Positions 1 to 62,462 of a stretch of 64,000 nt of DNA are shown piece by piece. Numbering within the stretch: position 1 is the first letter of the stretch; every line of letters begins with the position of its first letter. A program made the translations under genes and the position numbers. This DNA comes from Sycon ciliatum (Eukaryota > Porifera > Calcarea > Leucosolenida > Sycettidae): contig NC_088647.1 in assembly GCF_964019385.1 (NCBI RefSeq), forward strand, positions 15,515,794 to 15,579,793. Reading direction: 5' to 3'. A model generated the notes under the pieces. It saw only the letters and a list, made by a program, of their open reading frames with translations. It searched no databases and was not told where the DNA came from.

Positions 1-3000
1 GAGCTGCACTCCGAGCAGGATGTGTTTGATATCTTCGTTGCGTACATCACTGGCAAGCCGAACAGGCTCGGTCATAAGGTGAGCAGCGCGCGTTTGGGTG
101 GTGTGTGTACTACAGTCCATTCATAAAAAGATGGGTCCTGGCTCTGGCGAGCTCCCGTATTTGGCGATTTTTCGTGATTTCATCGTACACAGTGCAGTGC
201 TGCGAACTTTGAAATTTGAAAAAGGGTCCAAAAAGGGTGCCTGAACTGGGGTTCGAACCGCAGAATGCACTGTTGCAGGCGGGGTCAAACGGCCTGGATT
301 TTGATGGTTTTTCCCAATTCAGTGCTTTTGGGGCAAAACCTGGCCGAAATCCTATTCTTGCTATGGCTTGCTTTTTGGACAAAAAAACTTCAGAAACATA
401 ATTGGAAGAGGATTCCATATGGGATTGCAGAAAAAAATTCTAAAAAAACTCAACGTTTGACCCATTTATGGCCAAAAGCTAGAAGTTCATTTTTTTCTGA
501 ATGGACTGTAGTGGTGACGGCGGCAGCGATGGTGGTGTCATGGCCATGGGGGTGTCTGGTGTGGTGTGTGGACAGGCTACAGCGTGTGAGGCTTTGCTGT
601 TCAATGGCAGCTTATCATGGATAAAGCTTCTTGTTATTAGCAGGCCGAAACGGTACTTGGACGTGCTTCATGGGCGAAGTGGTATGGAAGGCAGACTTTT
701 CATGTTCCCTTGTGCATTGTGTGTATCTATGCAGGTGTCTCAGCTACCCTGGAACGATGAAGAACTGGCACCGGAGACCAACCTACTGACAGAGCGCCTC
801 GCCAAGATCAACGGCAGTGGCTTGCTGACGATCAACTCTCAGCCGAGCATCAACGGACGCTCCAGCTCTGACCCCATCGTTGGCTGGGGAAAGCCAGGCG
901 GTTATGTCTACCAGAAGGTACAATCACTGTTGCATTAGTAGCACTCATGTCATCCTAATTTGGATATTGCTATACTGTAGTTTGCCACCCAAGACCTGCC
1001 CAATATGGATGATTTCTCTGGTATGCTCTCTCCATGGATGAATCGTGTCATATGGATGGTGGCTTATGTCGTTGAAGGTCGTGCAGTATTACACACGGCA
1101 TTGGCGAACACTGGGTGTGCACTAGTGCAGGTTGCTGTGCAGCCGCAGACTTGTGAACACTGGGGGTGCACTGACGTTAGTGCAGGTTGCTCGCCTCTTC
1201 TGAGGTTGGGTTTCGCTGATGACTAGGTACAGTATACAACCTGTTGGCAGCTAGAAGCCAATGCTGGTATTTATCTGCTCATCTTCTCCCCTATTCTTTT
1301 GCAGGCCTACTTAGAGTTCTTCATCAGTGCGGACCGTATCGAGAAGTTGAAATCTGTGCTGGCCGACCACCCATGGGTGAACTATCACATTGTCAACCAG
1401 TCTGTAAGTTAACTTTAGATGGGTGTGTGCTGGAGTACGAAGCTCCCATGACTCATGAGCGTGCACCTACGTTTAGTCATGTACACATAAGCATCTGTCA
1501 CGGCTTGTTTTCGAATTACATGTGCAATCATCATGTACGTTGTTTTTCATTTTTCATTATATGATCCGCTCGACAAGTCGCAACCGAAACAGTTTGTGTG
1601 AGATTTACCTCACTTCTGTGCATATATACATCAGGGTTCTAGCCAGGTCAAAATACAGTCAGACCTCGGTTAAGGAGGCTCCGAACAGTTGCGCAGCGCA
1701 GTGTAAAAAGGGCACCTCCGAAATCTGTTTTTTGCCGCGAGATTCGAAAAATGTTGTGTTCCATGCGGAAATAAGCTGTTGTTCAGAAAGAAGTTTTTTG
1801 ATTTCTCTGTGCTCGCAGTTGTTCCAGGATGTAGTTCTACTCGTTGCAGTGTTTCTGTAGCCGTGGCTGTTTCTACGCTGGAAAGAATCACTGGCCATGG
1901 CTAATGCTAAACAAAGGCAGTTCCTGCGCTGCTTGATTTTTTGTGAAAACTTTGTTGAAGCGGTACGATGTGGCCACGAAGAACAAATATATTACTGACG
2001 AAGAAGGGTGAGAAAAGCAGGCTGAAGTCAGTGAAGACATCGATGTCGAACGTAGTGATACTAGTACTGGCACTGGAATTTAGCATGGCCTACCTGTGGA
2101 GCGTGAAGTGGCTGCCCACTCGCTGGTAAGTGGACCCACTTGCAGCTCCAGTCGCACGAGTGCCGTTTGAAACTGTTTCTGTGGATCCTAGAGTATCCTG
2201 AGCTCAGTGGACGACGCATCTCAGAGCTGCTGAACTTGGGCTACTGTCCCTGTAGGAATGAGGTTCGTGTCAACCACTGTACTGCACTGATGGTGTAAGG
2301 AAAACGCTGGCCAGAGGCTTGTGTTCTGAACCAGGGACGAACTTCTAAATCCTGCTTTTGTAAAAATGGGGATGCCACAACTAAGATGTGCACACTCAGG
2401 TGTGTATTGGGTAAATGCCTGTGGTTGATTATTTTGAATCCTTTTCTATGCGCAAGTACATGCGTTTGTGTGTGTGTGTGTACGCGCGCATGTGTGTGTG
2501 TGTGTGTGTACGCGCGCATGTGTGTGTGTGTGTGTGTATGCGCGCATGTGTGTGTGTGTACGCGCGCATGTGTGTGTGTGTACTCGCGCGCGCGCGCATG
2601 CGCGTGTGTGTGTGCAAGCTGTTGAAAGGTGTAATCCGAGCACAAGTTGCTATGTCTAACGTAGTTTGTTCGCTATCCTCGCTTCAGCGTTGGGCAGGTG
2701 TACGAGTGTGTGTGTACGCACGTGTGTGTGTGCGCGCGTGCTCGTGTCCGCATGTGTGGGTTCGCACGCAATGTTGATCTGGGTTATGCACATGTCCCCA
2801 CGAGTGCACTGTGTGCATGTGCATGCAAATGTCTGTGTACATGTATGTGTGTATGCACGTGCATGTGTGCGTGCGTGTGCAAAGCTAGGTGTGGAAGGGG
2901 GGGGGGGGGGGCTCACGGTGCTGGTTCTGTATGCCATTCTGGTGTCCGCAAGGACAGTGTGGTAATGGCTTTACAGTACAGGAGTTGCATGTGAATGCGC

Positions 3001-5276
3001 ATTTGTGAACCGTATTTGAGACACAAAAAGAATTGCTGAGTGAGCATGACAGTACATTACATGTATATCGTATATGTGCACGCCAGCGTGTGTAGATGCA
3101 TATTGCCCTTCATGCGATGTTTTTCTGGAGTCTGCTGCTATCAACGCAAGTGACAACCAGCAAATGCACGCCCAGTGCAGTGGCTGGTCTTCAGGCTTTT
3201 ATTTACACTAAGCCCTGCTATGGACTAGTAGTGTTACAATGATGCGTGCATGAGAGTGCGTGCATGTGGGTGGGTGTTTATGTGCGTGCGCACGCGTGTG
3301 AGTGTTTAGTGTGCCTTATTTTGAATGCCTGCTTTCACATTATTCATGTGCCAGTTTCATGGTCGAGGTTGTTATGAAACCTCGCTGCCTTACATGTACA
3401 TGTACATGTACACTACTCGTATATCAATGTGATAGGACTGAAGGCTACATGACATACATGTACATGTAATGATACATGTACCTTTCCAAGCACAGACTGT
3501 CTGGTTTGTCCAAAGGAGGTTGCAGCATGAAAATAACTTCTTCTAAAATAATGTTACCATACTACCATGTCATTGGTAGTGATATTTAGTCAAGAAGGCA
3601 AGAATGGTCAGATTTTCTAAAAATGCTATTTTCAGAATTGGCCTAAAAATACCATATTTTGATACCTATATTGTTTGGTAGGGGCCTAAAGTGCCTGGTG
3701 ACACCATCAAAACTGTCCATTATCGGTTTCCTTGGGGCTCAAGGATCACAGAAAGCCACAAAAATCAATATGTCCATGGACAAAATGTTGCAGGCTGAAC
3801 CATTTCACAATTCAACACCCGATGGAAATTTCGGTACCCGTAATTTCGAAAAAGTGGCTCCCCAAGGGCAAAACCAAGACGCAGTCTATCTTGTGTAGCC
3901 AAGATACCTCCAAATGTGGTTCTTAAACATATGATGAAGAAAATGCTTAGTATCCTCCTTCCAGGAGGCTTCTTTGGGTCAAAAACCAAATTTTTTTACC
4001 ATTTTTTTACCGAAAATCAAGAAATTGTACACTCACTAAATACACCAAAATACCTCTTATATGCCTGGTGACCCTACCTAAAAACTATACCAAATTGAAG
4101 AAGAGACATCACTCCACAATTCTATGCATAAAAAACAGGGTGTCCATGGACCTTTTATTTTTACTTCTTTAGGTGGGAGCCTCCTTAACCGCACACATCC
4201 GTTTGCCACAGATGAACAGTATTAATTTACTCCATCTTTACGGTAGTATAATTATAAAAATCAAGGGCGTGCAACTTCAATCAAAAAATTGGGGCCATTT
4301 TTGGAGTATTACGCGGTTGTCCTTTAGACACGGCGGCAGTTCATCAATCTTAGGACACATGAATCTAACTTCCATTGTTCTGCTTCAACTACCGTAGCTG
4401 CATTGTACATACATGTTCTTTGCACATTTGCTCTCTGGCTGTACATGATGGTAGCAGTGAGCGAAATGGCCTCCAAAACATAAAACGAATTCTGCCACAG
4501 ACCAGATTACACACTCTTTGTTCTGATGCCATGGAAACTCGGTAGGAGTCTACCCACTGAGTATCCGCTGCCCGACTGTACGTACTATCCTGCCGTCGTC
4601 TATTTATGTATCTGCTTATTCCTAACTCTTTTTTTGCGTACAGGGAACGGAGAGCTTCACCAACACCAGCCATAATCCCATCGCCGTCACGTGGGGAGTC
4701 TTCCCAGGCTGTGAGATCATCCAACCGACTGTTGTCGATCCGGTTAGCTTCGGCATCTGGAAGGTCAGTTGTACATGGCATAGTGCTGGCGTCTACACTT
4801 CTGGGGGAGAGGGGGGGGGGGGGTGCAGAGGGATTCTGCTAGTTGGCACCTGTTGTGCGTAACCAGTTTGTACTGTCACACATACAAGTAGGGTAGACTT
4901 CCACTTCGGTGAAAGTGCATTGCACGCAAGCGTGAGAGCAAACTGGATTGTGATGCCTACAGGGAATTGTAATCGTACGTGACAACTAGAGTGTGCACCG
5001 CCAGTGCACGTCTGTCACTCAACAGCTGCGTTTCATTCCCAAACATATCAACTGCAAGCAACGTCTCTCTCTCTCTCTCTCTCTCTCTTTCTCACTCCCA
5101 TGCAGGATGAAGCATTTGAACTTTGGATTGAGCGATGGGGCAAGTTCTATGAGCAGGACAGTCCTTCCTGGAACGTTATCAAGTCCATTCACGACAAGTT
5201 CTACTTAGTGAACTTGGTTGACAATGACTATGTAAAGGGCAATGTGCTCTTTGACTTGCTTTTGACCCTAGTTTAG
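1..5276 (+). CDS. MTHFR: Methylenetetrahydrofolate reductase, last five exons (5' partial)
   Basis: The exons encode the C-terminal part of MTHFR, the flavoenzyme that reduces 5,10-methylene-THF to 5-methyl-THF. This is the SAM-responsive regulatory domain; the catalytic TIM barrel lies upstream of the window. Exons are 1-78, 735-917, 1305-1403, 4644-4763 and 5106-5276. All junctions are GT-AG, all are phase 0, and the stop is TAG at 5274. Family signatures are clear: a conserved [76 protein letters not shown] and [10 protein letters not shown]. The protein stops about 11 residues after the LVNLVDND motif, with a hydrophobic tail where animal MTHFRs usually continue through a longer acidic stretch, so the end is slightly short. 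Intron 3 is 3.2 kb and intron 1 holds a MITE. The assignment comes from recognised family motifs and is very secure. Confidence 0.95.
113..508. mobile_element. TA-flanked MITE in MTHFR intron 1
   Basis: The sequence starts CAGTCCATTCATAAAAA and ends with the inverted TTTTTTCTGAATGGACTG. It is flanked by TA on both sides (111-112, 509-510), as expected for Tc1/mariner or pogo-type insertion. It has no transposase. An internal GGTTCGAACC resembles a Pol III B box, and a segment near 335 (AAAACCTGGCCGAAAT) recurs in the larger relative at 20772-21839. Confidence 0.75.
1404..4643 (+). other. MTHFR intron 3, repeat-filled
   Basis: A 3.24-kb intron with no coding signal. It holds alternating TG/CGCGCA purine-pyrimidine tracts (2465-2615, 2700-2885), a 16-base poly-G run (about 2896-2911), and TACATGTA repeats near 3400-3475. 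At 1654 there is TA then CAGTCAGACCTCGG, which looks like a pogo-type TIR. A reverse copy of the adjacent 16 bases (CGGTTAAGGAGGCTCC) lies at 4176-4191, but the outermost bases do not match. Confidence 0.7.
2465..2885. repeat. Alternating TG / CGCGCA simple repeat
   Basis: Two blocks of (TG)n interrupted by CGCGCA and TACGCGCGCA, separated by about 85 bases. Long alternating purine-pyrimidine tracts of this type can adopt Z-DNA. The ORFs across it on both strands are repeat artefacts. Confidence 0.9.
5062..5093. repeat. (TC)n polypyrimidine tract before MTHFR exon 5
   Basis: A pure CT run ending about a dozen bases before the acceptor TGCAG at 5101-5105. It doubles as the polypyrimidine tract of the last MTHFR intron, so its length could affect splicing. 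Confidence 0.8.
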
Positions 5277-6610: not shown

Positions 6611-8003
6611 AGGCGGTTTTTTCTGAGCAGCGCTTTGCTCCAACTAACAAGTTTTTCTGAAGCATCTATGTGTAAGGACTGTCCACAGAAAATTTGAACG
6701 GAATCCAAGCAGTATTTCCAAAGTTACGAGCATTCAAACATAGCGTACCAACCTTGATGAACACACATACAAATTGGATCTGCAGGATGGCACAAAATGG
6801 AATTCCCATACTCCCTAGCAACACCATAGCAACAAATAAACTTCATCCGATCGTGGCCAAACTTGGATCAAGGATGGCCCTGGCTGTGACGAAACGGAAG
6901 ATACAAGTTTTTTTTCAAAATTCCAAATGACCGCAACAATGGCATCCTTAGCAACGGCCCTAGCAACAGTATATTTCACGCATAATTCAACATGGTAATA
7001 GGTGGAATATGACAGAAATACGGCAAACACAACGTCTAAGTTATAATAGTATGCATGTGGGAAACTAGAGGAGCAGACAGCAAGCTCTGATGTCACACAG
7101 TGCCCGTTTTCGGCTGCAACGAGTCAGAGACGCACATTAGCCGCACAACGACCATACTAGAGGCTATTGAGTATTGTACACAGAAGCCAGCCAGCGGTGA
7201 GTATTTATAAGAGATAAGTTCAGTAAAAAACCAGCCTGGAACAACCACGCACCTGTATGACACATGGAAGATCAAGTCTGGTGCCACACACAGGGTCAAG
7301 ACCTGCTATGCCGGGTGCAGGCTCCAAAGCGCCATCATTTGCTGCGCCGGCATCAACATCAACTGTTGCTTCAGCACTGACATCAACGGCTGGTCCAGCA
7401 TGGACATGAACTGTTGCAAATGTCCACACCTCAGCACGTACGACTGCTCAGGTGTGGAAATTTGATAACACTGATATAATTTTCCAAAACTTATACAATT
7501 CATGCAATTTGCAATCCCTGCAGCCCACAATTTTCCTTGCAGTTCAATGTTTCTTTCTTAGACAAGAATCAGACACAATATACGATTTTCGTTCAGTATG
7601 TGTGGTTATCTGCTTTACAATTTGATTGAGAGGCAGTTCAAAAGGATGACTTAGTAATTCACTGAGGTCGTCACTTGCCTTGTTCTTCAGCAATTTTTTT
7701 CTCCACTCTCTGATACGCCCGATTTTGTTCCTGGCAATTTTCACATCGTCTCGAAATCCTTTCCATCCACGACTGCAACTAGCAAAATCAAATTATGCTA
7801 ACTTACTTGGTATCATTTTTGCTTCTCGCCCTCAACGAGAGTTCAACTACTACTAAGCCATTCCTCAACTGCCTGGGACAACACCATGAACACAGAGGAA
7901 GACGGAAGTCAATCGTCTTTCTTCTCCACCTCCATACTGTGTCATGGCGTTCAACTTCAAAACAATTTCCGCGACCGAGCGCGACCCTTCATGCCGTCTG
8001 AAG

Positions 8004-8731
8004 AGGTATATTATGCTCGGCAGGCCGCGAAAGAGAGCCCGTTACCTGGACCCCTACTCGCGCGGGTAGAGCGAAACTGAGCACCCTGGGATGCGAGCAG
8101 CTTTTTAGTACTCCCGGGTCCAAAATCTCACCACCAGGCCGGGATGATCAAAACGTCTGCCGGGTCTGCAGCCTACAAACGTGGATCTGCCGACACTGTG
8201 CTGTCGACGACATGTCCGGCAAGGCACCTCCTTGCGTGAAAGCAAGGAACGCTTTTTTTTTAGAAAGGAAGCTTCTTCTCCAAAATTTAAAATTTTTGCA
8301 AATTATTCCTTCTGAAAATATCATCGCGTTCTTGACCTCGAAGCTGACTGCTGAATGCGATTAGGAAAGAAGATTCCTGAAGATACACCAGACTGATTCT
8401 GGCAAGCCGTCTGTCGTCTAGATATGCAGTTGTTCGTCATGCATGGTCAGCAATCTTCCTCGTTCGTCCTTTCGTTTTCCTGACCACGATGATGACAAGC
8501 AGCTCTCATGCTCAGGTTAGTGCTGTACTTGTATGTCTGGGCACACAACACATCTGAGATTCACCCACTGACGTTATCGAACTGAAGAATGCAGCAAGGG
8601 TTCCTCGGATTCTCTTGATTTCGGAACAAATTTCCTTCACTTTCACCCTCTCAGTCTCTTCCCCATGCCCTCCATGCATGCACAATGCAGCTTGCATTTC
8701 AATTGCTGTTTTTTATACTTTGGCAGTGCCT
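8004..8731. repeat. Left long TIR of the 7.4-kb element
   Basis: Inverted copy of 14717-15442. The outer end carries a GC-rich segment (AAGAGAGCCCGTTACC, CGCGCGGGTAGAGC). The inner part contains a 61-codon open frame on the minus strand that is also open in the right copy on the plus strand. Similarity stops near CACTGCCAAAGTA. Confidence 0.85.
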
Positions 8732-8806
8732 CTGCTACACTTTCATATAGAGTGAGGTCCTGTAAATAGGATCGAACATTGTTGGTGGTGCTGGTGTGTG
8801 TGTGTG

Positions 8807-8830
8807 GGGGGGGGGGGGGGGGGGGGGGGT
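8807..8830. repeat. Poly-G tract after TG repeat
   Basis: About 24 consecutive G. Similar tracts of 10-30 G occur at about 2896, 4806, 6246, 9147, 23759, 38034 and 45110. They are G-quadruplex candidates and assembly-error risks. Confidence 0.9.
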
Positions 8831-8909
8831 ACGTTTGCAGCCAGGATGTAGGAATGACACTTCTGCACAGCAGGTGGCAATAGTCAAAACTGGTCACTCT
8901 ACAAATCCC

Positions 8910-9074
8910 ATACCTGCCAACCTTTGCAAACCTGAGATCCAATGACATACCTAGGCATGAAAATGTATACAAAAGAAGCTCGCGGTGAGGCATGGAACTA
9001 GTGCACTTTTGGGTGCCTATTACCGCCCTCGATATCGGGACGGTCCCGGCCAAATCGGGATGGTTGTCAGGTAT
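8910..9074. mobile_element. Small MITE with ATACCTGCCAACC ends, nested in the 7.4-kb element
   Basis: Left end ATACCTGCCAACC and right end GGTTGTCAGGTAT are inverted. AAATCC(CA) occurs directly on both sides, an apparent 6-8-bp target duplication. Related sequence with GACGGTCCCGGCCAAATCGG lies at 52400-52446. Confidence 0.6.
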
Positions 9075-9333
9075 GAAATCCCAACCGAGAAAACCATTTA
9101 ATTAAAAGATAAACTCGGCCAGGACATAGCGACTTTCTGTTTGCCGGGGGGGGGGGGGGGAGGGTCATCGTCCGCAATATTGGTAGAGTTACGATTACAT
9201 TGTATATGTACATGTAGATACATGTGCATCAGGGATTCATAGCACCTGGGGAGACGACATGAGACCTAAGTACCCAAAACGTTGTGAGTTGTGACCCCGG
9301 ATGGGGTAGTTCTATGTGATCTGTGTTTCTATA

Positions 9334-9575
9334 GACCTTATTCGAAAACATGATTTTTGGACTCGCCTCCAGGGATTTGTTGTAAGCTGGGGCACGCGTA
9401 CGTGAAACGAGTGGCAAGAAAGGCCCAGTTCGTACAAGGGAGTAGTAAAATACCGGTATTTTTCTACTCCTATGTTCCCACGCCGAGTCCACTGTGCACT
9501 GAGTGCAGGTCTCTTGCCGCTCCCTGGTTCCCGGGACCCTGGTTCACGTGATTGTGACGTTTATTGAATAAGGTC
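9334..9575. mobile_element. TA-flanked 242-bp MITE
   Basis: Inverted ends GACCTTATTC / GAATAAGGTC with flanking TA. It contains a hairpin around GGGAGTAGTAAAATACC that resembles the 36-bp repeat at 18561-18632. Confidence 0.55.
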
Positions 9576-10557
9576 TACATGTATATGCGGGCATGCATAA
9601 ATCAACCCTTCCACAAGGACGGCTCAAACAGGCAGCCAAGGAGTGAAAATTTCGCTCCTGGGGCTAGGAGTGAAACGAAGGCCTCAATTTGCCAGATGAA
9701 CCTTCTCCATCGAAACGAACGAAGGTGTCGAATAATTCTTTTACCAGTTCACAGTTGCCGTTCACGCGCACTCCCCGGGGCGGGGGGGGGGGGCTACTAT
9801 GCACTTGTAGTGATACTTACCGTAAACCAAGTGGAACACGACTAGTTGACTGCACAGACTACAGTACAGTATACATGCACATGTATACAGTGAAGATCAG
9901 TGCGTGCATGCCTGCCATAATCGTATGTTGACCTTCGTTCGAATTGAAAAGAGAGGGTCGTTTCGAAAAAGAAAAAAAGCTCGATGGAAGTATGATGCTG
10001 CTGACAATTCAAGACTCACTGAAGTCGCCTTTCTGGAATGGATCATGCACTCTAGGTTCATCCAATTGGATATGGACTCAAATCATTGTTACACCATTAT
10101 TGTTTGGTTAGTTATTGTACATCCCATAGCATGTACAATCAACCTTGTGAATAATCTACCTCGGGTTTACAAAACAACTCGCAAATAACGACACAATCTT
10201 CAGATCTAGTGAACATTTGATTGCATACTTCCAACCTCACGAGTAACAACAATGCGAATAGCGACACTTTTCTCATTCACAATCGAGGGTCAGTATTCCC
10301 CAGGTTGACTGCAATTGCCAATCAAACAGGAGGGGCGAAAGTCGACCACGGCTGAAAAGGCATAAAGAAAAATTAATGTATATCATGAGCTAGATGGCTG
10401 AAGGAGGAAGTAGGTTTTCTGAGAAAGCAAGAAACAGAGGTGAATGAAGCACCAGGTCTGTCCATGCAGTGGATAGAATTATTGCATTGAAAGACAGGCT
10501 CTTTACATCAGCTTGCTACTATTATACCTACATTTGCTTTCTGCCTTTTTCATGCAG

Positions 10558-10696
10558 GATTCTGAAAGCTGGAGCAGCTCTGCTTACCTCGACCACTGAA
10601 CTTACAACTAACTTCCAACCAAGTACAAGGCAATATTATGATGAATCAAGCACGCTTGCCATCATGTCATCATTGCAAAGTACATCGACAACATAG
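10558..10696 (+). CDS. Candidate 3'-terminal exon inside the 7.4-kb element, function unknown
   Basis: A good acceptor (pyrimidine tract, then TGCAG at 10553-10557) opens a 45-codon frame ending in TAG. It is rich in Ser/Thr (TSTTELTTNF, QSTSTT). No upstream partner exon is clear. The frame would need two bases from a previous exon. No family is recognised. The plus orientation is opposite to the minus-strand exon cluster at 12.8-14.3 kb, so it may be spurious. Confidence 0.25.
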
Positions 10697-12843
10697 ATTT
10701 GGTGCCGACTATGTATGATGTAGAGTGTGCTCTATGTATCTATACTACTGATTGGCCTACATTGTACTTATGTGGGCTGAGAGTAATCGATTGTGCTATA
10801 TGGCAGTTTACTTGTATGTCATAGATGTTAACATTGCACACAGCTTCTGAAATGCTTTCTGTTGCACTGGCCTACTGCGGCCCACTGCAAATAGATTGTA
10901 GTGGCGTGGGCCATGCCATAATTATAGTAGTATACCGGTACTACACCAACAATTTCACTGGTGTACTGTACTTACTGGTACGAGTAGATCTACATCATGC
11001 ACAGCCTTGTCACTGCTTTTCTCATTTTTTATTAATTTACTGTACTGTACACATTTTGGCACAGCTCTTCCACAAAGAGTTACTAGTATTTTCTTCTGCA
11101 TACCTACTGTATACAGTGACCTGACTGGTAACATCTATGGCTGTGAAATCACAAATTTCTGGGTTGACAGCCTCGAACCTATACGATTTGTTTCTAAGAA
11201 CGTGCTATAAGAAATTTTCTATTGAAGTATTCTACTGTAGCTCGCAGGACATGGAGTGCAATTACGTAAAGTTTGGAACACCACTCTTCTGTGATTTGGA
11301 TGTCAAATTATGAAATTCAGTGTGTGAGGTAAACCCATGCATGGCATACACTGCTATAGTATGACTCGGGGTAAAGTGTTCCAACGCATACTCATTATAG
11401 TGAATAGTTGTGTGACCAACGTTGTTGCTGCTGGATAAATAGTACATATTCTGAGATAACTGAAGCTACACAGCCATCTAATGTTCAGACATGCATCGAA
11501 GGGGCCGTAACGAGATCTGCAAGGCATGATTCTATACCTGTATTTGATGCTCTCTAGCCTAGGACATTCACCTGCCTCATTTTCTCTGTGCTGCATTGAT
11601 GAGTCCATTAGTAACTAAAGGACGAAACAGCATGCTGTCTGCAGATTGGTAATTGTGTAAAGACAGACGTGTATGTAGTGGTAAAGCTCAGATACATGTG
11701 CAACATAACAATCCCGGTGTTTGACAACAGCACAAACCTACACCGCAATTCTTAATTTTGGGCTGTGGTGTTCTTAGTATTCCAGGTTGGATGTTCTGTA
11801 GGCTTCCACGTTCTTGGGCGCACGACTTTACTGTGCCGAAGAATATTTTCAGCCAATGAACCCAGAGCTTGGTGGCAGATGAGTGCCATGGAACAGCCTT
11901 TTGCATGTGGCTTTCACTACATGCACATGTATAACGTTCAATTGATGCGGAAAAATCAGACGAGGACTTTTGCAGTTATGAGCAAGGTCCCCAAGAATGG
12001 TCATGTCACTTCACAGAATACATGAACTGATAGAGTAGACCTCGGTCCCCTCAGAGAACGCTTAACAGAGAACGCTTGGGGAAGTAGGTTTCAACCATAG
12101 ATTTATACTTAATATTCTTTACAACAAGGATCGATGTGTTCCTTCGGATGCCCTTTATCGACTTTCACACACTTCTCCTCTCTCCTTTCGTCATAAGCAC
12201 CATCTCTGTACACTGGTTCATAAAATAGTTCTTCATAAAACCCCTTCACACATAATGAAGTACAATTGGTTTTCGACAAGCTCAACCCGTAACGCGCTTA
12301 TCCTGCCTCTTGTTAAGTCAGCCCGGTATCTAAAGCCCCCCTTGTTTTCCGGTTATTCTCATTGGTTAACTGGGGACATGTCCAAAACCATACTAAGTAC
12401 TTGAGCTGCTCATGAGCCCCACAATTATCAGGCCCGCCGGTCTGGTTGGTCAGGTTATCACCAGACCAACTTGTTGGCCACCAACAAACGTTTCCTACCG
12501 TGGAGGACGTGTGTACCCGCCATGAAACTACCGGACCAAATTGTCCAATCAAAAACTGCTTCCGGCGGTACTGATTATAGTACAGGTTTAAGTTAAAAAG
12601 CGGCTCCATTTTGTCATACATTAAACCAACTCTGTCATTGCTATGCTACTCAAAAAGAGTAGTGATGTTTATTCACAAATGAATCACAATGCTATCAGAG
12701 AAATTCGATATTCTCCAATTTTAGGGGCACTGCAATACTATCCAAAATTAATGCTGCATGGTCATTGTTATGAAGCAGTCACCTCAGTACAGCAATTAAA
12801 CAGGCTGATTATGTGAACGAGATTCACGGCAAATCTTCTTCCA

Positions 12844-14347
12844 TCAGTGCTGTTCAGTCTTGAGTGGTCCACTGAGACAGGAAAACAACCTGTTCGGTCC
12901 TTCCATACGAGAAACAGAAATTGAACATGTTCCAGGGTGGAGGTGGCGAGTATCGGCAATGTAATGCACCTTTAGGCCAACATGACCATCATTCCGACAT
13001 GGATTCTCAAACACCTTCGCTCGTGAGAGTGCCTCAGAGTGGTATTCATCAACAGATGGCAATCCTGTAAAACACATGAAAAGACATAGCAGCAACAGAA
13101 AGAAACCTAATGTTATAGAAACGAATTCGAAAAACAAAGTCTACTATTATTCTAATACAGTGAACCAAGGTACAACCACACTCCAGGAGGCAAGCAAAAG
13201 AGCATATAATCCGAAGGTTGTGATGCCTGTATGTATTGTATTTATGTATTTACGGATTCTCCACAGGCTAAATCGAGGGAGTCTTTGTCATGCCACACTG
13301 GATACAACATGCTACCAGAATCACTTTCCCCAGAATTGATGATCTTTTCTTAGGGTGTTATATAAGACACATCTGTAGCCACTTCATCTTGCTCACGAAA
13401 TCATACACCACCACACAAACGGGTCCTTCGGCTATTATACTTTGGGTGGTACATGGTGATGTATGATATTGATAATCTATTGATACCATATTCAAGTCTG
13501 ACTCTCACCGTGAGATCCTGGCAACAGTATTACCTGGTACACGACATATTCAGACACTGACATAAGCATCTTTTTGGAACAACAGGTGTGCCTATCTGCT
13601 AGTGTAATGTGACACACATGCAGAACACATGCAGAATCAGTCATAGCTAATTTTACCCCCTCACTGTTGTATGCGCAGACTCCACTTCGCGGTGTCAAGT
13701 ACTCTTCTTTCGGTGGGCTACTCCACTAAGGCGCTTGTCTAAAAGGACTCACATTCATCCTGCAAACCAACACGACTTGCATAGTTTTCACTGTCGGCCA
13801 AAGTGCGTGCATTGCACACATTGAGATTCACTCCCTCCGTACAGGCCAGTACAGAGCTGCCCACCAATTGAGTCTGTTTTGCGTACTCAGACTTCTGATT
13901 TTCCGTATCTTGCAGTGTTTTGCGTACTGCCGTGTACATTGCATGCATACTTGCACTGTAATGTTTTTTGACACGCACATGCATGTCGGTGGCTGCATTT
14001 GGTAGTGTAAAACATGTGTGACTTGCACTCACGACATTATTATTTTTGTGCTACATGTACATGTTGTTGTGGTACGGCATGCACTCGCTTTGGTACAAGA
14101 CTATTCATCACTCAGCTTACACTTGCAATGCTTCTACACAGCTGATTGATCCTCTCCGATTTTCTATACCATTTGCGCAATTTCTGTAGTGCGCACAAGG
14201 AGTGATTTTCCGTACAAATACAGAAAATATGGAGGGCTGGTACTTGGTAGCACTGCTAGTATGGTAGTACCAGGCTAAGCTGGCTGGAAGATCAAATACT
14301 TCTTTGGTTCTTTCAGTCATTTTCACGACATATGTTTTCTTTATCAT
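12844..14347 (-). CDS. Cluster of candidate exons of an unrecognised gene within the 7.4-kb element
   Basis: Four minus-strand open blocks run inward from the right TIR. 14347-14117 starts with ATG and has a K/R-rich N-terminus. 14032-13753 has frame words such as VRKTLQDTENQKSEY and a GTGAGT donor. 13725-13534 is 64 codons, phase 0 at both ends, acceptor TTAG, donor GTAATA, with several Cys and His. 13069-12844 follows a TTTTACAG acceptor (SVDEYHSEALSRAKVFENPC). The composition is protein-like, but the phases of adjacent blocks do not all match, so the exact exon set is unresolved. I recognise no DDE, SWIM or RNase-H motif. It could be a diverged transposase or captured host exons. Confidence 0.3.
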
Positions 14348-14716
14348 GATCCCCGGGGTGTGACATTCTTATGAATGCAGAAACTCAGTCTTTCTAACCG
14401 AGTCTCACGTGCAATGTGAATTTGTTCTTCTTTTCTTCACAATGCCATGTATCGATTCATCGCTTCTTCCCACCCGAGATCCTATGCAACAGCGATTTAA
14501 AGATTGGCTTTATCAAATAGTTAATTCAGAGAGAGAGGATCAGTTGTGGATGCTGTGACAGCATAGAGTGTAGATTGGTGTAAACATCATTGCCCAGCAG
14601 AACCGTATTCACAGGGATCTGCGTTTAGCATATGGAAGCTATTTTTTTAGAATTTGTACACGTCCAATAAGCCTGAAGAGAAGAACACCTAACTTAGACT
14701 GTCCTAACGTTATCGA

Positions 14717-15442
14717 ACGCACTGCCAAAGTAAAAACAACATTTGAAATGCAAACTCGATTGTGCATGCATGGAGGGCATGGGGAAGAGACTGAGGGGGT
14801 GAAAGTGAAGGAAATTTGTTCCGAAATCAAGAGAATCCGAGGAACCCTTGCTGCATTCTTCAGTTCGATAACGTCAGTGGGTGAATCTCAGATGTGTTGT
14901 GTGCCCAGACATACAAGTACAGCACTAACCTGAGCATGAGAGCTGCTTGTCATCATCGTGGTCAGGAAAACGAAAGGACGAACGAGGAAGATTGCTGACC
15001 ATGCATGACGAACAACTGCATATCTAGCCGACAGACGGCTTGCCAGAATCAGTCTGGTGTATCTTCAGGAATCTTCTTTCCTAATCGCATTCAGCAGTCA
15101 GCTTCGAGGTCAAGAACGCGATGATGTTTTCAGAAGGAATAATTTGCAAAAATTTTAAATTTTGGAGAAGAAGCTTCCTTTCTAAAAAAAAAGCGTTCCT
15201 TGCTTTCACGCAAGGAGGTGCCTTGCCGGACATGTCGTCGACAGCACAGTGTCGGCAGATCCACGTTTGTAGGCTGCAGACCCGGCAGACGTTTTGATCG
15301 TCCCGGCCTGGTGGTGAGATTTTGGACCCGGGAGTACTAAAAAGCTGCTCGCATCCCAGGGTGCTCAGTTTCGCTCTACCCGCGCGAGTAGGGGTCCAGG
15401 TAACGGGCTCTCTTTCGCGGCCTGCGGAGCATAATTATACCT
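14717..15442. repeat. Right long TIR of the 7.4-kb element
   Basis: Inverted copy of 8004-8731. It includes the plus-strand frame 14748-14933 (core EIKRIRGTLAAFFSS), which points outward like its mirror copy in the left TIR. The near-identical translation may just reflect recent TIR identity rather than selection for coding. Confidence 0.85.
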
Positions 15443-15451
15443 CGTCTGAAG

Positions 15452-16143
15452 GAACCTACTTAGACTAAATCGATGCCGTAGAATCTGATTCTGACTGCCG
15501 CTTGAGCGTGGAACCAAGGCAAACACCTCAAAAGCGACTTTGAAATCTACAAGAATCTATCGAGATGCGTAATATCGGCACGAATTCGCCGTGTGAGGCA
15601 CCAAACGAAAGCTTGAAACCTACTCTTGAACGGTGCGCCAATAAAAATGGCGATAAACTCACTCTCCCTACCTAAAATCGACGCCGAAGACCCCGCGCTG
15701 AGCTGTGCCATGCCTGGCATTCAAAAAGCATGCATGCGTGTCAAGGTACTTTTGCCCCCGCAGATCACGTGACTGAAATCCCTACTCTTGATGTCATGCA
15801 AGAGCAGCCCATGGCCCAGCAGCTGCGCCGATCAGTGATCACTGATCAGCTGCATGCGCGCATGAATCGCGCGGCATATGATCAGCTTCATGAATAATGA
15901 ATGCACTCTCCGAAAAAAAATTGATTGTTTTTGGAAGAGAAATGAAACAAACCAAAAAATAATAAGTAATAGTTTTGATGGAACTATTTGAAGTCGAAGT
16001 CAAACACTCAGGCTTTTATTTTTTTCTAATTCTAGCTTTGACAAAGAGAAACATTGCAGTATCGTGCATATTCATTCACCTAGGCCAACCTAGGGTTTGC
16101 TTGGTTGTTCGAGTTCAGTGGTAACTAGCATTCTTCAACTGTT
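15452..16143. other. Non-coding spacer with an 18-bp perfect palindrome
   Basis: No coding signal. It holds GATCAGTGATCACTGATC (15830-15847, perfect palindrome) and the right copy of the outer inverted repeat (about 15915-15965). It ends just before the ATG at 16144, so the last part may be a promoter or 5' UTR of that ORF, although I see no convincing TATA box. Confidence 0.5.
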
Positions 16144-16875
16144 ATGGACAAAGCAGCTCTAAAAAGACTGAGGGTTGAGGCGGAACGTCTTCACAAGTGG
16201 ACATTGACACAGCTGGAGAATCAAGACACCTCAGTTGCGCCGAGAAAGTATATCGAGGAGAGTGACTTTGAAGACAATGCCGATGATGGTCAATTTCCAA
16301 TGCGAGATGCAGATGTGGACCGTCATGTACATAGAATTATTGCACTGAGTAGCGTGTATCCACTTGGCAAAAGTCGTGAAGGAGTGCTGAACGTTGATGG
16401 CATTGCTGATCAGAGCTATGCTAAAGATCTGGGCAGTGCCCAGGATGCCCCTGTGGCAGAGCAACTCCCTAAGCCGTATCCACAGCTAGGGTCAGCTATG
16501 GTTCCCGGTGCTTTTCTGCAGCAAGATCAACAACAGCAGCAGCAGCAGCGATATGAACACGTACTGCATGTGGATGGCGATGGTAATGCCACGTACGGCG
16601 AGCTGGACACAAGCTTGTTCTCACCAATTCCTTCCCGCTCAGCCCAGGGTATCACATCATTGACTATGACATCAGGTCAAACGAGTGCAGCGCCCGACAC
16701 ATTGACGACTGGGAAGACAAGTCAGCGACCAAAGACTTCGTCTCGATCATCGAGCGCTATCGCCGCACCATCGATGGTTGGGCCTGGGCCTGCTACCAAG
16801 GGGTTCCCGGTGACCTCCACGCCGGCCGTTACTAAACAATCTCGCAAACGCAAGCATGCCAGCACCGTTAATTGA
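16144..16875 (+). CDS. Orphan 243-residue poly-Q, Ser/Thr-rich, probably nuclear protein
   Basis: A continuous 243-codon ORF from ATG with varied codon use and balanced composition, unlike the simple-repeat ORFs nearby. The N-terminus is a basic amphipathic stretch (KRLRVEAERLHKWTLTQLE), followed by an acidic patch near residue 40 (EESDFEDNADD). A poly-Q run built of mixed CAA/CAG lies near residues 127-135, then a long Ser/Thr/Pro-rich low-complexity region. The C-terminus is strongly basic (KQSRKRKH), a plausible nuclear localisation signal. No known domain is recognised. It may be a complete single-exon gene or a long exon. Confidence 0.5.
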   Translation: MDKAALKRLRVEAERLHKWTLTQLENQDTSVAPRKYIEESDFEDNADDGQFPMRDADVDRHVHRIIALSSVYPLGKSREGVLNVDGIADQSYAKDLGSAQDAPVAEQLPKPYPQLGSAMVPGAFLQQDQQQQQQQRYEHVLHVDGDGNATYGELDTSLFSPIPSRSAQGITSLTMTSGQTSAAPDTLTTGKTSQRPKTSSRSSSAIAAPSMVGPGPATKGFPVTSTPAVTKQSRKRKHASTVN

Positions 16876-22297: not shown

Positions 22298-23345
22298 CCA
22301 GTTTGTGTTGGTGTGTGTGTGTTCTCTTGCTATTGCAGGGTCAGCATCATTGTCTGGTTTTGGTCGATTCAGACATGGTGGTGACAATGTCATCATCGTC
22401 CACCTCCAACAGCACAGCAGTGCCAGTTCTCCTTGTCCTCCTCTAGCTTTGAGTTCCAGGCACCAAGTCGGGGCGAGCTGATGACGCCATGACCAACCTG
22501 CTCGAAAACGGTATCATGCACTTGCAGTGTATTTTAAACTGAAAGGAAAATGTCTGAAACAGCTTGTCGAGTGGCACTGACGGTAATGATGAAGGTGAAC
22601 TCACGATGCCGCCACCAGGGCCAGGAAATGTGAAGTAAGTTGAGCGCGGCACCTGGGCACCGGCCTGGTCGTCTTGGCCACAACCAAGCTGTGCCTCAAA
22701 GCTTCCTCGCAACGGCCACAACCAAGCTGTGTGGGTAGCTTCCTCGCAACGGCCAGCTGGTTCAGCAACCCATTGTTGTCACAAGTTGGCAACGTCGTAT
22801 GTAGATGGCAACAAACTGGTGGATCACGTTACTTCACCACCACTGAGGACGAAATATATAATGCACTGATGGCTGCCATTCAGGCGAGCGATGAATGCTC
22901 CTGGTGGCCAAACAGCCTCGTCTGGCTCAGGTCCTCTGAGCTGTCCGAAGATTACCCACCGGCAGTATACGAGTGTGATGTGCATGCATGCATAATTATT
23001 ATTTTAAAATCATGATCTGCCTTCCTGCTATCTGCAAACATCTTTAATTCGTTTGGCTATGGGGATTGGGGGATCCTTCCCGCCGACGTACATATTTCAA
23101 TGCAGTTGTTTTGTGTGCGTACAGTCAGTCTACTCACAGTCTACTCACAGTCTACTCACACACTTCACACATCCGGACGGCATTACTAGTGTATGGATTA
23201 ATTAAGTCACGCATTTTTGTCTCCAAGATCGGAGGGCGTGATCGTGACTAAAACCATGTGTAGACTGTATTTTCACCACCCCAGTCAAGCATGATTGCTT
23301 GGTAAACAGCAGCCATGGACCAACTCACAATTCACATGCTTACTG
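22298..23345. other. No resolved gene
   Basis: Contains a partial tandem repeat (CGCAACGGCCACAACCAAGC at about 22672 and 22707) and protein-like frames on both strands around 22830-22970 (plus: DEIYNALMAAIQASDEC). Nothing lets me choose a strand or frame. Confidence 0.3.
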
Positions 23346-23463
23346 GTGAAAGCAGTAGTGACGGAACGGTGAAAACCGGAGATAAATGATTTAATGTCAT
23401 ACAAAAAAAACATATCATTTATCTCCGGTTTTCACCGTTCCGTCACTATTTGACTGCTTTCAC
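23346..23463. repeat. Long hairpin, arms of about 45 bp
   Basis: GTGAAAGCAGTAGTGACGG through AAATGAT is repeated in inverse at 23414-23463 with a few extra bases, around a loop of about 24 bases. A (TC)n tract follows at 23470-23501. Confidence 0.85.
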
Positions 23464-23468
23464 CCCAT

Positions 23469-24563: not shown

Positions 24564-24622
24564 AAACCCCTATCTTCTAGCACTGCAGTATATAATGCTT
24601 GTACATTCAGCGTATTCTAACG

Positions 24623-24948
24623 TTACTTTGGCTTATTTGCACGATTATTATTTATTTACTTATAATTGTGTACATCAGCGAGGCAGATAGACATGCTGAT
24701 GACACTGCTAAGTAGACATAGTGTGAGAGATAGAGAGTTGCAGCTCATTATGTTTAGAAAGCCAAGCTCTTGCATGTGACGAGTCCTGCGTGGTGTATAC
24801 CGAGCATCCAGCAAAAACATAATGAGCTGCAACTCTCTATCTCTCACACTATGTCTGCTTGGCAGTGTCATCAGCACATCAACCTGGCTTACAGATGTAC
24901 AGAATTATAAGTAAATAAATAATAGTTGTGCAAATAAGCCAAAGTAAC
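24623..24948. repeat. Fold-back repeat, arms of about 135-150 bp
   Basis: The left arm (TTACTTTGGCTTATTTGCAC through CTCATTATGTTT) is mirrored at 24813-24948. The loop itself (GCCAAGCTCTT, GTCCTGCGTGGTGTATA) is mirrored again at 24953-25015 and partly at 25055-25090, giving several overlapping hairpins. Confidence 0.85.
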
Positions 24949-25195: not shown

Positions 25196-25278
25196 AAAGA
25201 ACAATCCTTATCCAGTCCCAGACCCTCATCATATTATTATTATGATGAGGGTCTGGGACTGGATAAGGATTGTTCTTT
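25196..25278. repeat. Near-perfect 83-bp hairpin
   Basis: AAAGAACAATCCTTATCCAG continues to CCCTCATCATA and is mirrored exactly through ATTGTTCTTT, with a short ATTATT loop. The same arm start (GAGCTGCAAAGAACAATCC) also occurs at about 25029, tying it to the fold-back cluster. Confidence 0.9.
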
Positions 25279-26868: not shown

Positions 26869-26992
26869 AGATTAAAAAAAATTGGCCCCGAAGAGTGGTG
26901 CGATGAAAAACCGGATCAACCGGCCCGGTGGCTTCGCGCCAGAGTTTGTATGTTAAGCCTGGCAAGGGCAATCTGTACATGTAGACCCGACC

Positions 26993-27161
26993 AACACACC
27001 TTCTCAACACACCTTCTAAACACACCTTCTCAACACACCTTCTAAACACACCTTCTAAACACACCTTCTAAACACACCTTCTAAACACACCTTCTCAACA
27101 CACCTTCTCAACACACCTTCTCAACACACCTTCTCAACACACCTTCTCAACACACCTACTT
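26993..27161. repeat. 13-bp satellite AACACACCTTCTC, about 13 copies
   Basis: Includes a variant unit AACACACCTTCTA. It sits in duplication unit 1. Confidence 0.95.
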
Positions 27162-29016: not shown

Positions 29017-29442
29017 TACCTACTGTTGTGCACATGAATATCCAGTCGGAGGTCAAGCGGCCCAGGGCGCTGGCCATGCAGCCACGAGTTCGCATGTGGT
29101 CAACACGTGCACTGTGCAATGCAACGTTCTGTACGCACTGAGGGCACCGGCCCCACGCCATTCGACTGGATTTCCATGTCCACGACAGTAGTACAAAGTG
29201 GCTCCTCGCTATGCCACGGCTGCACCGTAGCCCTATAGCAGTTAGTGCACTGGCGTGTGCATCGACATGTGCATTGCGTTCCGCCCTTGATCGATCGCAG
29301 AACTCCGCACTGAAACAGATTTAAAAAAAAAATTGACCCCGAAGAGTGGTGCGATGAAAAACGGATCAACTAGCCCGGTGGCCTCGCGCCAGAGTTTGTA
29401 TGTTAAGCCTGGCAAGGGCAATCTGTACATGTAGACCAGACC

Positions 29443-29949
29443 AACACACCTTCTCAACACGCCTTCTCAACACACCTTCTCAACACACCTTCTCAACACA
29501 CCTTCTCAACACACCTTCTCAACACACCTTCTCAACACACCTTCTCAACACACCTTCTCAACACACCTTCTCAACACGCCTTCTCAACACACCTTCTCAA
29601 CACACCTTCTCAACACACCTTCTCAACACACCTTCTCAACACACCTTCTCAACACACCTTCTCAACACACCTTCTCAACACACCTTCTCAACACACCTTC
29701 TCAACACACCTTCTCAACACACCTTCTCAACACGCCTTCTCAACACACCTTCTCAACACACCTTCTCAACACACCTTCTCAACACACCTTCTCAACACAC
29801 CTTCTCAACACACCTTCTCAACACGCCTTCTCAACACACCTTCTCAACACACCTTCTCAACACACCTTCTCAACACACCTTCTCAACACACCTTCTCAAC
29901 ACACCTTCTCAACACACCTTCTCAACACGCCTTCTCAACACACCTTCTT
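29443..29949. repeat. 13-bp satellite AACACACCTTCTC, about 39 copies
   Basis: An expanded version of the unit 1 array, with occasional AACACGCCTTCTC variants. Because 13 is not a multiple of 3, all three plus frames cycle through one 13-residue pattern (NTPSQHTFSTHLL), giving a 202-codon ORF that is not a gene. Confidence 0.97.
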
Positions 29950-35631: not shown

Positions 35632-35776
35632 CTGTGGCAAGCAGTTGGAATACATAAACCCAACAGATAATGTCACCATCAACAAGTAACTGCTAAAGCA
35701 TATCCAGAGTATTATGGGACCCAAACGGGAGCATCCCAGTGCGAATGCATGACCACTAACAAGCATGAGCTTTTAA

Positions 35777-36625
35777 AGGGGAAGTATACCCTAAAATCAA
35801 ATTTCACCAGTTGTAGTCTTCGGGGTGCTGAGTCGAATGGTCTTGGTCCGAGAAAGCTGAGACGCTCCCTTCCTACTTCGGAAGTACTTTATTCCCAATC
35901 GAACTCGCCACTTCCACCAAAACTGGGTGACTGTGCCTTACTGGATGGGGATTTGTATGCAAAAGTGCCATTTCGTTCTTATAAACGCACAGATAACAGC
36001 AATTGGCCCATAAGTTGTAGTCTTTTGGACGCCGAGTCGACTGGTTTTGGTCCGAGATCGCTGCAATGCAACGTTCGGCCCTTATTCCCAATCAAACATG
36101 GCTGAATACGCGGCCACGTGCTCACGTGTACACCAGTCACCTGGTCACTGTGCCTCCAAGCTATAACTTTCACACCAAGGTTCAACTCAAAGGTTCAACT
36201 CGAGTGACAGGAACGCGCCCAAACAGCCTGTAAGTTGTACGCTGAAGGCACGGTGACCAGGTGACTTGTGTACACGTGAGCATGTGGCCGCGTATTCAAC
36301 CATGTTCGATTGGGAATAAGGGCCGAACGCCGCATCGCAGCCCTCTTGGACCAAAGCCAGTCGACTCAGCATCCAAAAGACAACATACGGGCCAATGGCG
36401 GTCATCCGTGCTTCTATAAAACAAAAGGGCGCTTATTAGTGACATTTTGCATACAAATCCCCATCTAGTAGGGCGCAGTCACCCAATGTCGGTGGAAGTG
36501 GCGAGTTCGATTGGGAATAAAGGAGGAAGGGAGCGTCTCAGCAAGTTCCTCGGACCAAGACCATTCGACTCAGCACCCGGAAGACTACAACTGGTGAAAA
36601 TTAGATTTAAGGGTATACTTCCCCT
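35777..36625. mobile_element. 849-bp near-complete palindrome with TTAA target duplication
   Basis: Ends AGGGGAAGTATACCCT and AGGGTATACTTCCCCT are flanked by TTAA at 35773-35776 and 36626-36629. The two halves, about 420 bases each, are inverted copies throughout (for example GGTGCTGAGTCGAATGGTCT and its complement). TTAA duplication points to a piggyBac- or Kolobok-type non-autonomous element. Confidence 0.85.
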
Positions 36626-36679
36626 TTAACTTCCCCTTTAAGTTAAAACTCGTAGCTACGGTACTTTTAAAACAGTAAA

Positions 36680-47999: not shown

Positions 48000-48588
48000 G
48001 TGCAACTGTAAAATCAGGTGCAGAGTTTTTCTGCAAAATAATTTAAAATTGTTACTGCGAAGAATGTGCGACTATAATAATTATACACTCTACTCCTCCT
48101 ATCCGAAAAGGCTTGTCACCGACGGTATTACTGAGTAGGACAATCGGATGGACATGGTCAATTATTTATTATGTAAAAAAATAGCCACGAGGTACTGGAG
48201 AATGTATAGAGCAGAGGATTAGGGGAAGAAGATTGTATTATTGAAACGCCGAATGGTATCGCTAACACAACCACGTCATAGAGATTCTTTGGACACGCCT
48301 TGAAATTTATAACGTATCCAGTTGTACGCTATGCCAGCAGCCTGCATCGCACCATGTACTGTTTTCACGTCGTGGCATTCTGCTGTTACACTGAAGAAAA
48401 GAACAAGCTTCAGGATCCTCCCCATGAACATTTTCAAAAGCCTTCCACTAGTACGTTCACTGTCTTCTTATTAGATGGAATCATGCAAAAAGGAACTGAA
48501 AAGTACAATGACTTCTTCATCAGAGATGTGATCGAAACAGCGCAAAGAAGAGTAGCCAGAAACGACACGGTAAAAGTTGCACCCTCAC

Positions 48589-48729
48589 CTTCTTCATCAT
48601 TAATTTTCCTTTTATATTCACGAGGTTTTGCAATGTACCGTGTTGTTTCTGGCTTCTCTTTTCTCGCTGTTGCTATCACATCATTCTCTGCTGTATATAA
48701 TTTATTGTGCATGTCGAGTTTCTTTTTAC
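48589..48729 (-). CDS. Phase 1-1 exon, probable cytoplasmic segment of a receptor-like gene
   Basis: Acceptor GGTATACAG, donor GAAG|GTGAGG, 141 bases, phase 1 at both ends. It is very hydrophilic with Tyr in charged context (KLYTAENDVIATARKEKP, TTRYIAKPREYKRKI). An upstream block on the same strand (49031 downward, acceptor CTGCAG, THPVTNTHGDGIANIQPTV) is also phase-1 compatible. Together with the tail exon at 46703-46796 this suggests a minus-strand membrane-receptor gene, paralogous or identical to the Ig/repeat locus at 27-36 kb. Inference only; no kinase or other domain is seen. Confidence 0.45.
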
Positions 48730-49520
48730 CTGTATACCACCTGATGAGAAGACAGTGAAAGTGCCAGCAAAAACATTCTTTTGAAAAAATGGATTCCGAG
48801 GAGCTTGACGTCTGTTCTTTTCTTGAGTGTGATAGAATTTTTGTCTCCAAGGAAACACTGTTCTACTACGGATTGCTCTTTCACTCCTCTTGTATACTCT
48901 GACTACTGCAGTTCTTGGAGATAACTGATGTGGCAAAAGATATGTGCGATTTCGTGTTTCTGATATTCCGTTGACGGTTGGTTGTATGTTTGCAATTCCA
49001 TCTCCGTGTGTGTTCGTTACCGGGTGTGTGACTGCAGCGATTCCGAAGCGGAGATCTTTGCTGAACGTCGTGTGTGGGTGCAGCAATGGAGCATTACAAA
49101 CTGCTTTCTGTTTTGCTGGTCATCCAGGTGAGTTAACCCGGTTGCTAAGATAGTAACCCACTGCTGAACTGCTTTCCGGGTATGGCTTGTGTGTACATGT
49201 ACTCGTAGCACGTGTAGCGTATCCCACCGCTGGCACCAATTCTGTAACGGGCCGCAGTCTTTCTCGGAGGCAAATGCAGACGGGTCTCAGTGAACACACT
49301 GTTAATAATAATTCTTACTGAACTAAACGGAAGACTACATTGTAAACATTAACTCTGACTCTAACTCTAAACTGACATAAAGAAGGTTCTAACTGGTATC
49401 TCTAACTGGCCTTTCTAACTGGCCTTTCTAACTGTAGTTTCTAACTGAACTTCTAACTGGCGTGTAGAGAATTAAGAACAGCAGCTTTTATAGGCAGACA
49501 GCATACGTGCTGCAATAGCA

Positions 49521-54231: not shown

Positions 54232-54478
54232 CTTTTGCTGCTTCTCCTCCGTGATGTGCTAGTTGCGCCTTTTTCTCTCTCTCTGTCATACTAGGTGACA
54301 TAATTCGCATCTTTTTTGGCGCTACACTCTGCGTATATACTGCTCTTGTGTGGCTTCCACGGTATTCATTGTTATTACCTGATGATGGCCAAGTGCCGAA
54401 ACGTTGTAAAATAACGGAACTGGTTCGGATGTGATATGCAGCGCTATGGGAATGGGTGTGTCCACCCGAATTCTTTTC
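54232..54478 (+). repeat. Left pLTR of the Penelope-like element
   Basis: Identical base for base, by eye, to 57572-57818. It includes a pyrimidine-rich stretch, a TATATA near 54334 and the hammerhead-like motif. The ORF's first ATG lies five bases after its end. Confidence 0.92.
54371..54415 (+). ncRNA. Hammerhead-ribozyme-like motif, left pLTR
   Basis: Contains the conserved CTGATGA and GAAAC boxes in the right order. Stem I can form between GTTATTAC and GTAAAATAAC with a two-base bulge, stem II is GGC/GCC with loop CAAGT, and stem III is minimal (CG/GTT side). One extra T follows CTGATGA compared with the canonical core. Hammerhead motifs in pLTRs are known for Penelope-like elements. Self-cleavage is not shown here. 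Confidence 0.5.
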
Positions 54479-54482
54479 ACAG

Positions 54483-61755: not shown

Positions 61756-62104
61756 GTGAGTGTAGTATGGTGTTTGAAGAGGTGGTACAGGACTGGGACC
61801 CCGATCATTCATATACTGTCCACTAACACCACCAGTTGCTAAACCATCAGCTCATGCGATAACATTGCACGACACTGACCGACAGTACTGACGTTCTACA
61901 ACTAACTGGCTAACAGCTCTAGCACATCTTGGATGCGCACTCCAACAGCCTTCCAACTTGGAAGGTTCTAAGTTATAGAAATAACATAAGGAGCGGAAGG
62001 TGAGCGCAACCAAGATAAGCTGATTGTTTAGTAACTGGTGGTGTTAGTGGACAGTATAGCGTAACTTGTAGTTCCTTGGTCTTTTTGTATAAATTAAACT
62101 TTGG

Positions 62105-62462
62105 CTCTTCATCTGAGTACTTCCAACAATAATAAGTATATTCTCATCATTGGGGATTGTTTTAGAAAATGGCTTGAGATGATCCCATTACCCAATATTA
62201 CTGCCAAAACCGTTGCCTCCTCCCCCCACCCCCCCCCCCTTAGTTGAGTGGATTTTGTATGTTTTGGGGCTCGTGAGAAAATCCATGCGGACCAAGGGTC
62301 ACAATTTTGCTTCACAGTTGTTTCTGGAATTGTGCAAACGTTTTAATGTGAAAAAGACTCGGATGACCCCGTTCCACCCTATGCGAGATGGCATGATCCA
62401 GGAATATTTGGATGTTGCCCACAAACAAACTATGATTTCAAAGCCAATGCCGATGCTTTGAA
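62105..62462 (+). pseudogene. Decayed Ty3/Gypsy integrase core, left arm
   Basis: Plus-strand reading matches SNNNKYILIIGDCF and PLPNITAKTV of the integrase core start (first catalytic Asp in IGD), then after a poly-C frame break SMRTKGHNFASQLFLELCKR and KTRMTPFHP. The second catalytic Asp (usually in HSDQG) is replaced, and the expected Glu region (MIQEYLDV) is altered. Non-functional. Confidence 0.65.

Follow-up and report, generated by a model that had tools for sequence, protein, structure and literature searches.

The 64,000-nucleotide stretch of Sycon ciliatum DNA analysed here (NC_088647.1, positions 15,515,794 to 15,579,793, forward strand; hereafter, the window) contains a complete transposable element at window positions 8003..15443 (7,441 bp, no strand assigned). 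Based on inverted-repeat alignment and copy comparison, we localized its ends, GAGGTATA...TATACCTC, its left terminal inverted repeat (TIR) at 8003..8729 on the + strand and its right TIR at 14719..15443 on the - strand. The outermost 11 bases, GAGGTATATTA, are common to several families, while the right TIR of the window copy has one extra base near its end (GAGGTATAATTA). Comparison of the flanks across copies identified a 7-bp target site duplication (TSD), GTCTGAA, at 7996..8002 and 15444..15450 (both +). Between the TIRs lies an interior of about 6 kb (8730..14718, no strand assigned) without recognisable coding sequence. Within it, four blocks at 10462..11160 are about 69-80% identical to a 12.1-kb sister family and include a polypyrimidine-CAG stretch at about 10540-10559, and a further block at 12684..13229 (element positions 4682-5227) is 66% identical to the same family; these blocks likewise carry no strand assignment. 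The element is probably a young, large, non-autonomous TIR DNA transposon, of which the genome has roughly 70 copies.

An earlier note, made from the window alone, had described near-identical long inverted ends, and the alignment of 8004-8731 with the reverse complement of 14717-15442 bore this out, with 714 of 725 aligned positions identical and 4 gap positions. The ungapped inverted pair comprises 704 bases at 99%, and the TIRs of this copy, about 725 bp long, are about 98% identical to each other. The note's size of about 7.4 kb also stood; its start at AGGTATA did not. In each of the 20 further copies that were retrieved in 10-kb stretches, a G precedes AGGTATA, the next base outward being variable (G 10, C 7, T 3), and the right end is TATACCTC, with a C after TATACCT, in all 17 fetched copies whose right end was listed. 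Because other copies have the same bases, the G at 8003 and the C at 15443 belong to the element; the element thus spans 8003-15443, and the duplication is therefore 7 bp. The 9-mer CGTCTGAAG was correctly reported as an exact repeat, found on the + strand of the window in two places only (7995 and 15443), but its reading as a 9-bp TSD is ruled out by the comparison across family copies: the matches at 7995 and 15451 are chance flank matches outside the 7-mer.

Exact duplications were found in 22 of 28 end pairs, and each of them is 7 bp long (21 of 27 if L016 and L017, which share a site, count once). The 28 pairs comprise 18 of the 7.4-kb family, including the window copy, nine with ends of the 12.1-kb sister family and one of an older subfamily, to which 14, seven and one of the exact duplications belong, respectively; L010-L012, with no right end within their 10-kb stretches, stand outside this count. 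The assignment to Mutator-like elements in the earlier note had rested on the 9-bp duplication and loses that basis.

To look for unoccupied sites, we joined the flanks of the 22 sites with a single 7-mer and compared them with the window and the fetched loci. Eight joined sites have a match elsewhere that spans the junction, seven of them gap-free at the junction (L013, L024, L027, L039/40, L041/42, L049/50 and L051/52); in the eighth, L025, 7 gap positions lie close to the junction, and it is left out of the unoccupied sites. The counterparts of L024 and L041/42 have one mismatch near the junction, the L013 match extends just 10 bases beyond it, and some matches stop at the border of another element. 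These counterparts are repeat sites at 84-100% identity rather than alleles; in them the 7-mer is present once and the element is missing. Two of the sites, L027 and L049/50, are located within TIRs of related elements, and insertion sites are varied across copies. For the window element's own site, no unoccupied counterpart was found in the window and the fetched loci.

The genome searched for further copies comprises 538 Mb in 313 contigs. A search with the left TIR, in which the best 40 of 596 candidates were scored, gave at least 42 matches: 40 are full-length or almost full-length, with 99-100% identity, and the other two are partial (93-94%). The exact 16-base end occurs at 144 places (71 forward and 73 reverse; none for the reversed-pattern control), and therefore roughly 70 elements are present. 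The interior is common to all 20 copies fetched as 10-kb stretches, with long pieces 97-100% identical, and the 17 with both ends found are 7.3 to 9.3 kb long. On average, two copies differ by 0.33% over the left 800 bp (21 copies, window included) and by 0.39% over 2.3 kb of interior (20 copies); the window copy departs from the majority sequence in 2 of 802 and 5 of 2,310 columns, respectively. These results agree with the earlier description of a young, multicopy DNA transposon with long TIRs, and its suggested genome search recovered many copies with the same ends and a TSD of 7 bp. Copy-to-copy divergence is a better measure of age than TIR identity, which is not a clean one in the window copy because 10 of its 16 differing TIR columns are left/right differences that recur in most of the other copies (from 21 left and 16 right ends, with L010-L012, L015 and L026 excluded on the right).

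Nested inserts were seen in copies of the family, at each of the seven junctions displayed (369 bp in L013, 386 bp in L019, 283 bp in L020, and in L016/L017, with 884 bp in L016). L013 and L019, which have different flanks, share one insert at an identical point of the interior; therefore, a copy whose interior was already disrupted has itself multiplied. The L016/L017 insert starts no more than 6 bases from the end of the match in L010-L012 and may be shared too. Four end pairs 12-15 kb apart (L029-L032), of which parts were read, are the same 7.4-kb element with large inserts. Long frames in or beside these inserts matched reverse transcriptase, retroviral-type protease, RNase H, zinc knuckle or integrase (ten pieces scanned against Pfam, with L029's long frame represented by one piece), which are families of long terminal repeat (LTR) retrotransposons. 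An autonomous copy was sought in these four pairs and rejected, as they hold LTR-retrotransposon domains and no DNA transposase; still longer pairs, namely one on C7 (19.5 kb), one on C4 (21.8 kb) and three of 18-20 kb on C1 (73776426-73795958, 79815281-79835017 and 79843553-79861848), stand outside this reading.

The longest stop-free frame inside the interior has 123 codons, and a 152-codon frame crosses the TIR border. Compared with second-order Markov copies of the interior, there is no excess of long open frames: eight frames of at least 100 codons were observed (Markov mean 5.2, 95th percentile 9), and the median longest frame of the Markov copies is 147.5 codons. Of the longer interior frames, ten were compared with Pfam and none matched a family above cut-off; the best sub-threshold match, LUC7, had an E-value of 0.0027, which became 0.13 when the whole frame was scanned, and the six interior frames, with stops written as X, produced no other match with an E-value of up to 1. 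As the earlier note had stated, the element contains no transposase recognisable in either the frame or the six-frame Pfam scans. Rfam found nothing at gathering thresholds in the whole window, and only short repeat fragments elsewhere in the window match pieces of the interior.

The end GAGGTATATTA is also present on other elements within the fetched stretches. Genome-wide, this 11-mer occurs at 701 places (381+320), compared with 101 (51+50) for its reversed form. Among the 100 places listed, all of which lie on contig C1, 30 neighbouring pairs less than 25 kb apart are convergent, while 1,000 shufflings of the strands gave 11.1 on average and at most 19. Thirteen of the pairs are spaced 7.3-8.5 kb and ten 11.8-12.4 kb; one of these ten is a 7.4-kb element enlarged by an insert. 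The sister element read at L037+L038 is 12.1 kb long, with 701-bp TIRs, a 7-bp duplication and an interior of about 10.7 kb. It has no frame longer than 132 codons, and six-frame Pfam scanning of L037 801-10000 (9.2 kb, that is, up to the last 2.35 kb in L038) gave no match, so that it was rejected as an autonomous partner. Additionally, an older subfamily of 7.5 kb (GAGGTATATTATGGCACC), which like the sister family has the 11-base end, shows a 7-bp duplication in the one pair tested.

Between the 7.4-kb family and its sister, the TIRs and several interior blocks match at 65-80%. In the conserved blocks, gap lengths are mostly not divisible by three, and the long interior blocks lack a clear codon phase; both points also hold for the 12684..13229 block. 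Many matched frames of the 7.4-kb family carry stops in the sister element. The polypyrimidine tract conserved between the families, with CAG at its end, is similar to a 3′ splice site, and these blocks may hold a spliced gene or a non-coding transcript.

Listed ends also lie unexpectedly close to each other, as eight of 99 gaps between neighbours are shorter than 500 bp, compared with 0.03 expected for 70 units placed randomly. Part of this excess can come from nested insertion into repeats, from local duplication and from motif-like background, and a preference for sites beside related ends is a possible source of the close spacing. Examples of related ends close together on C1 are L023:189-200, L028:193-200, the L027 flank and L049, and some insertions lie 6-10 bp from, or within, the TIR of another element.

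Inverted repeats, a duplication of fixed length, dispersed copies and unoccupied sites, all of which characterise class II elements, were found together here, and the best reading is a large non-autonomous cut-and-paste element moved in trans. The cut-and-paste step, the enzyme behind it and its sharing by several families are inferred, along the following route. A transposase encoded elsewhere in the genome would recognise GAGGTATATTA and the adjoining TIR and excise the element, which would then be joined into a new site with a 7-bp stagger; the several families with the same 11-base end may use the same or related enzymes.

Several observations weigh against this reading. Neither a transposase nor an autonomous partner was found in the interior, in the four longer copies or in the scanned 9.2 kb of the sister family, and movement in trans is therefore a proposal. 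A gene split into many short exons could escape both the frame and the Pfam tests; in two short conserved blocks, of 76 and 51 columns, the mismatches are phased (0,3,10 and 1,2,7), and a block of 150 columns leans to the same codon phase (9,7,14), the 76- and 150-column blocks also holding frame-breaking gaps. Six of the 28 end pairs (L014, L019, L026, L028, L047/48 and L053/54) have no exact duplication, that of L014 being imperfect only. Such pairs may reflect recombination between copies, which would leave exchanged duplications, as reported for Galileo (PMC2775673). With respect to a P-type enzyme, the P-element family PF12017 had no match in the genome, in a search that also matched none of 14 control genomes, which makes this negative barely informative. 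Finally, known P-type ends begin with CA, unlike the GAGG found here.

The absence of a recognisable transposase could alternatively mean that the element is autonomous, with a transposase gene divided into many short exons and too diverged for Pfam. The interior blocks kept at 66-80% between the two families, the splice-site-like tract, the two short blocks with codon-like mismatches and the retention of a large interior during the burst, as seen in the 17 fetched copies for which both ends were found, speak for such a gene; the gaps out of step with codons, the lack of a clear phase bias in the larger blocks, the stops in the sister element, the empty or insignificant six-frame Pfam scans of both families and the number of long frames, no greater than expected, make it improbable. 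That the interior instead derives from a captured gene, as in Pack-type elements and as the earlier note had proposed as one of two options, would fit an interior that is large and not the same in families whose ends agree. Nevertheless, neither the ten frames nor the six whole frames of the interior contain a Pfam family above cut-off, with nothing better than E=0.13, and the window offers no more than short repeat fragments as a source; we consider capture very unlikely, a captured sequence without domains being the form that it could still take.

A Mutator-like element (MULE) with an unusual 7-bp duplication would account for the long TIRs and the G-initial end, and MULE transposases exist in this genome, where PF10551 has 41 matches, most of them without inner stops. 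MULE target duplications are usually 8-11 bp long, whereas all 22 intact duplications here are 7 bp. The ends also differ: in four of the MULE loci, read for about 1.5 kb on each side, the GAGGTATA end is absent and AGGTATA alone occurs once (in L034), and three of them (L033, L034 and L035) by eye seem to have different, inverted and tandemly repeated ends of the foldback type. No MULE match lies within the element or inside the listed GAGGTATATTA end pairs of C1, a contig with just one MULE match. MULEs, foldback-type ones included, resemble the present family in their long TIRs, and their transposases are present in the genome, but we regard a MULE origin as unlikely. An inverted duplication produced by the assembly, which the earlier note had named as a possible refutation, has nothing in its favour at the window copy, although local assembly duplications occur at L010-L012 (same left flank) and L016/L017 (same site). 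It is refuted by the dispersal of about 70 copies that have the same pair of ends in different flanks, together with 7-bp duplications and unoccupied counterparts, and we assign it a negligible probability.

Returning to a non-autonomous element moved in trans, we found Galileo, a Drosophila element of the P superfamily, to be the nearest described case by its duplication and repeat length. According to the available portions of two reports, Galileo has 7-bp duplications (7 or 8 in D. willistoni; PMC2775673, PMC4168063), TIRs of about 575 bp to 1.2 kb, longer in exceptional copies (PMC4168063), and many copies without intact transposase, in subfamilies with common terminal bases (PMC2775673, PMC4168063). 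As far as those portions go, the two systems have in common the 7-bp duplication, TIRs of hundreds of bases and the sharing of terminal bases among related groups, here the GAGGTATATTA families. In D. willistoni, the same sources describe a nearly complete 4.4-kb copy with a transposase frame and non-autonomous copies that are mostly TIRs with a spacer (PMC4168063), whereas non-coding interiors of 6 kb and about 10.7 kb are kept here. By analogy with Galileo, a P-type transposase may be the first candidate; the sole grounds for this tentative suggestion are the 7-bp duplication and the long TIRs, and the end sequence does not favour it.

Dada DNA transposons have duplications of 6-7 bp, comparable to the 7 bp found here. 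In the portion of the source available, Dada is described as inserting specifically into multicopy RNA genes (PMC8869645), while the sites of the present family are varied and the window contains no Rfam match at gathering thresholds. Among the papers listed on sponge Mutator/MULE, foldback and P/THAP9 elements, there was no description of such an element, and the occurrences of the 11-base end GAGGTATATTA in 6 papers were irrelevant as judged from titles and abstract beginnings. A 40-base stretch of the TIR had no match in a prokaryote genome collection.

Other features of the window were also recorded. To the right of the element, a 248-codon frame at 16129-16875 (+), starting about 690 bp from its border, has no Pfam match up to E=0.01, and the element may lie upstream of a host gene there. 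A frame at 501-938 (+) matches the MTHFR SAM-binding domain (E 8.7e-26) and is probably an exon of a host gene. A 918-codon frame at 54435-57191 (+) has weak matches to reverse transcriptase and GIY-YIG, both below cut-off, in an order that we take to suggest a Penelope-like element. Further palindromic foldback-like repeats are located at 61812-63291, 35773-36629 (with TTAA at both ends), 24622-24948, 48388-48830, 23345-23464 and 25196-25278, and a minisatellite, CAACACACCTTCT, is present in the two copies of a duplicated stretch (26992-27157 and 29442-29948).

Non-autonomous DNA transposons are usually short. Here, two apparently gene-less sister families measure 7.4 and 12.1 kb, and the smaller has multiplied very recently with its interior at full length, which raises the question of why such an interior is kept. 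A further reading, to which we give little credence at present, would be that the GAGGTATATTA-ended elements with their strict 7-bp duplication form a lineage of animal DNA transposons not described before, perhaps at the rank of a superfamily, whose large members (7.4 and 12.1 kb) are non-coding with conserved interior blocks and whose insertions prefer sites next to, or within, the ends of their kin. The common 11-base end and the strict duplication provide a clear handle for finding the enzyme, and, as the copies are very young, active transposition in this sponge may be testable.

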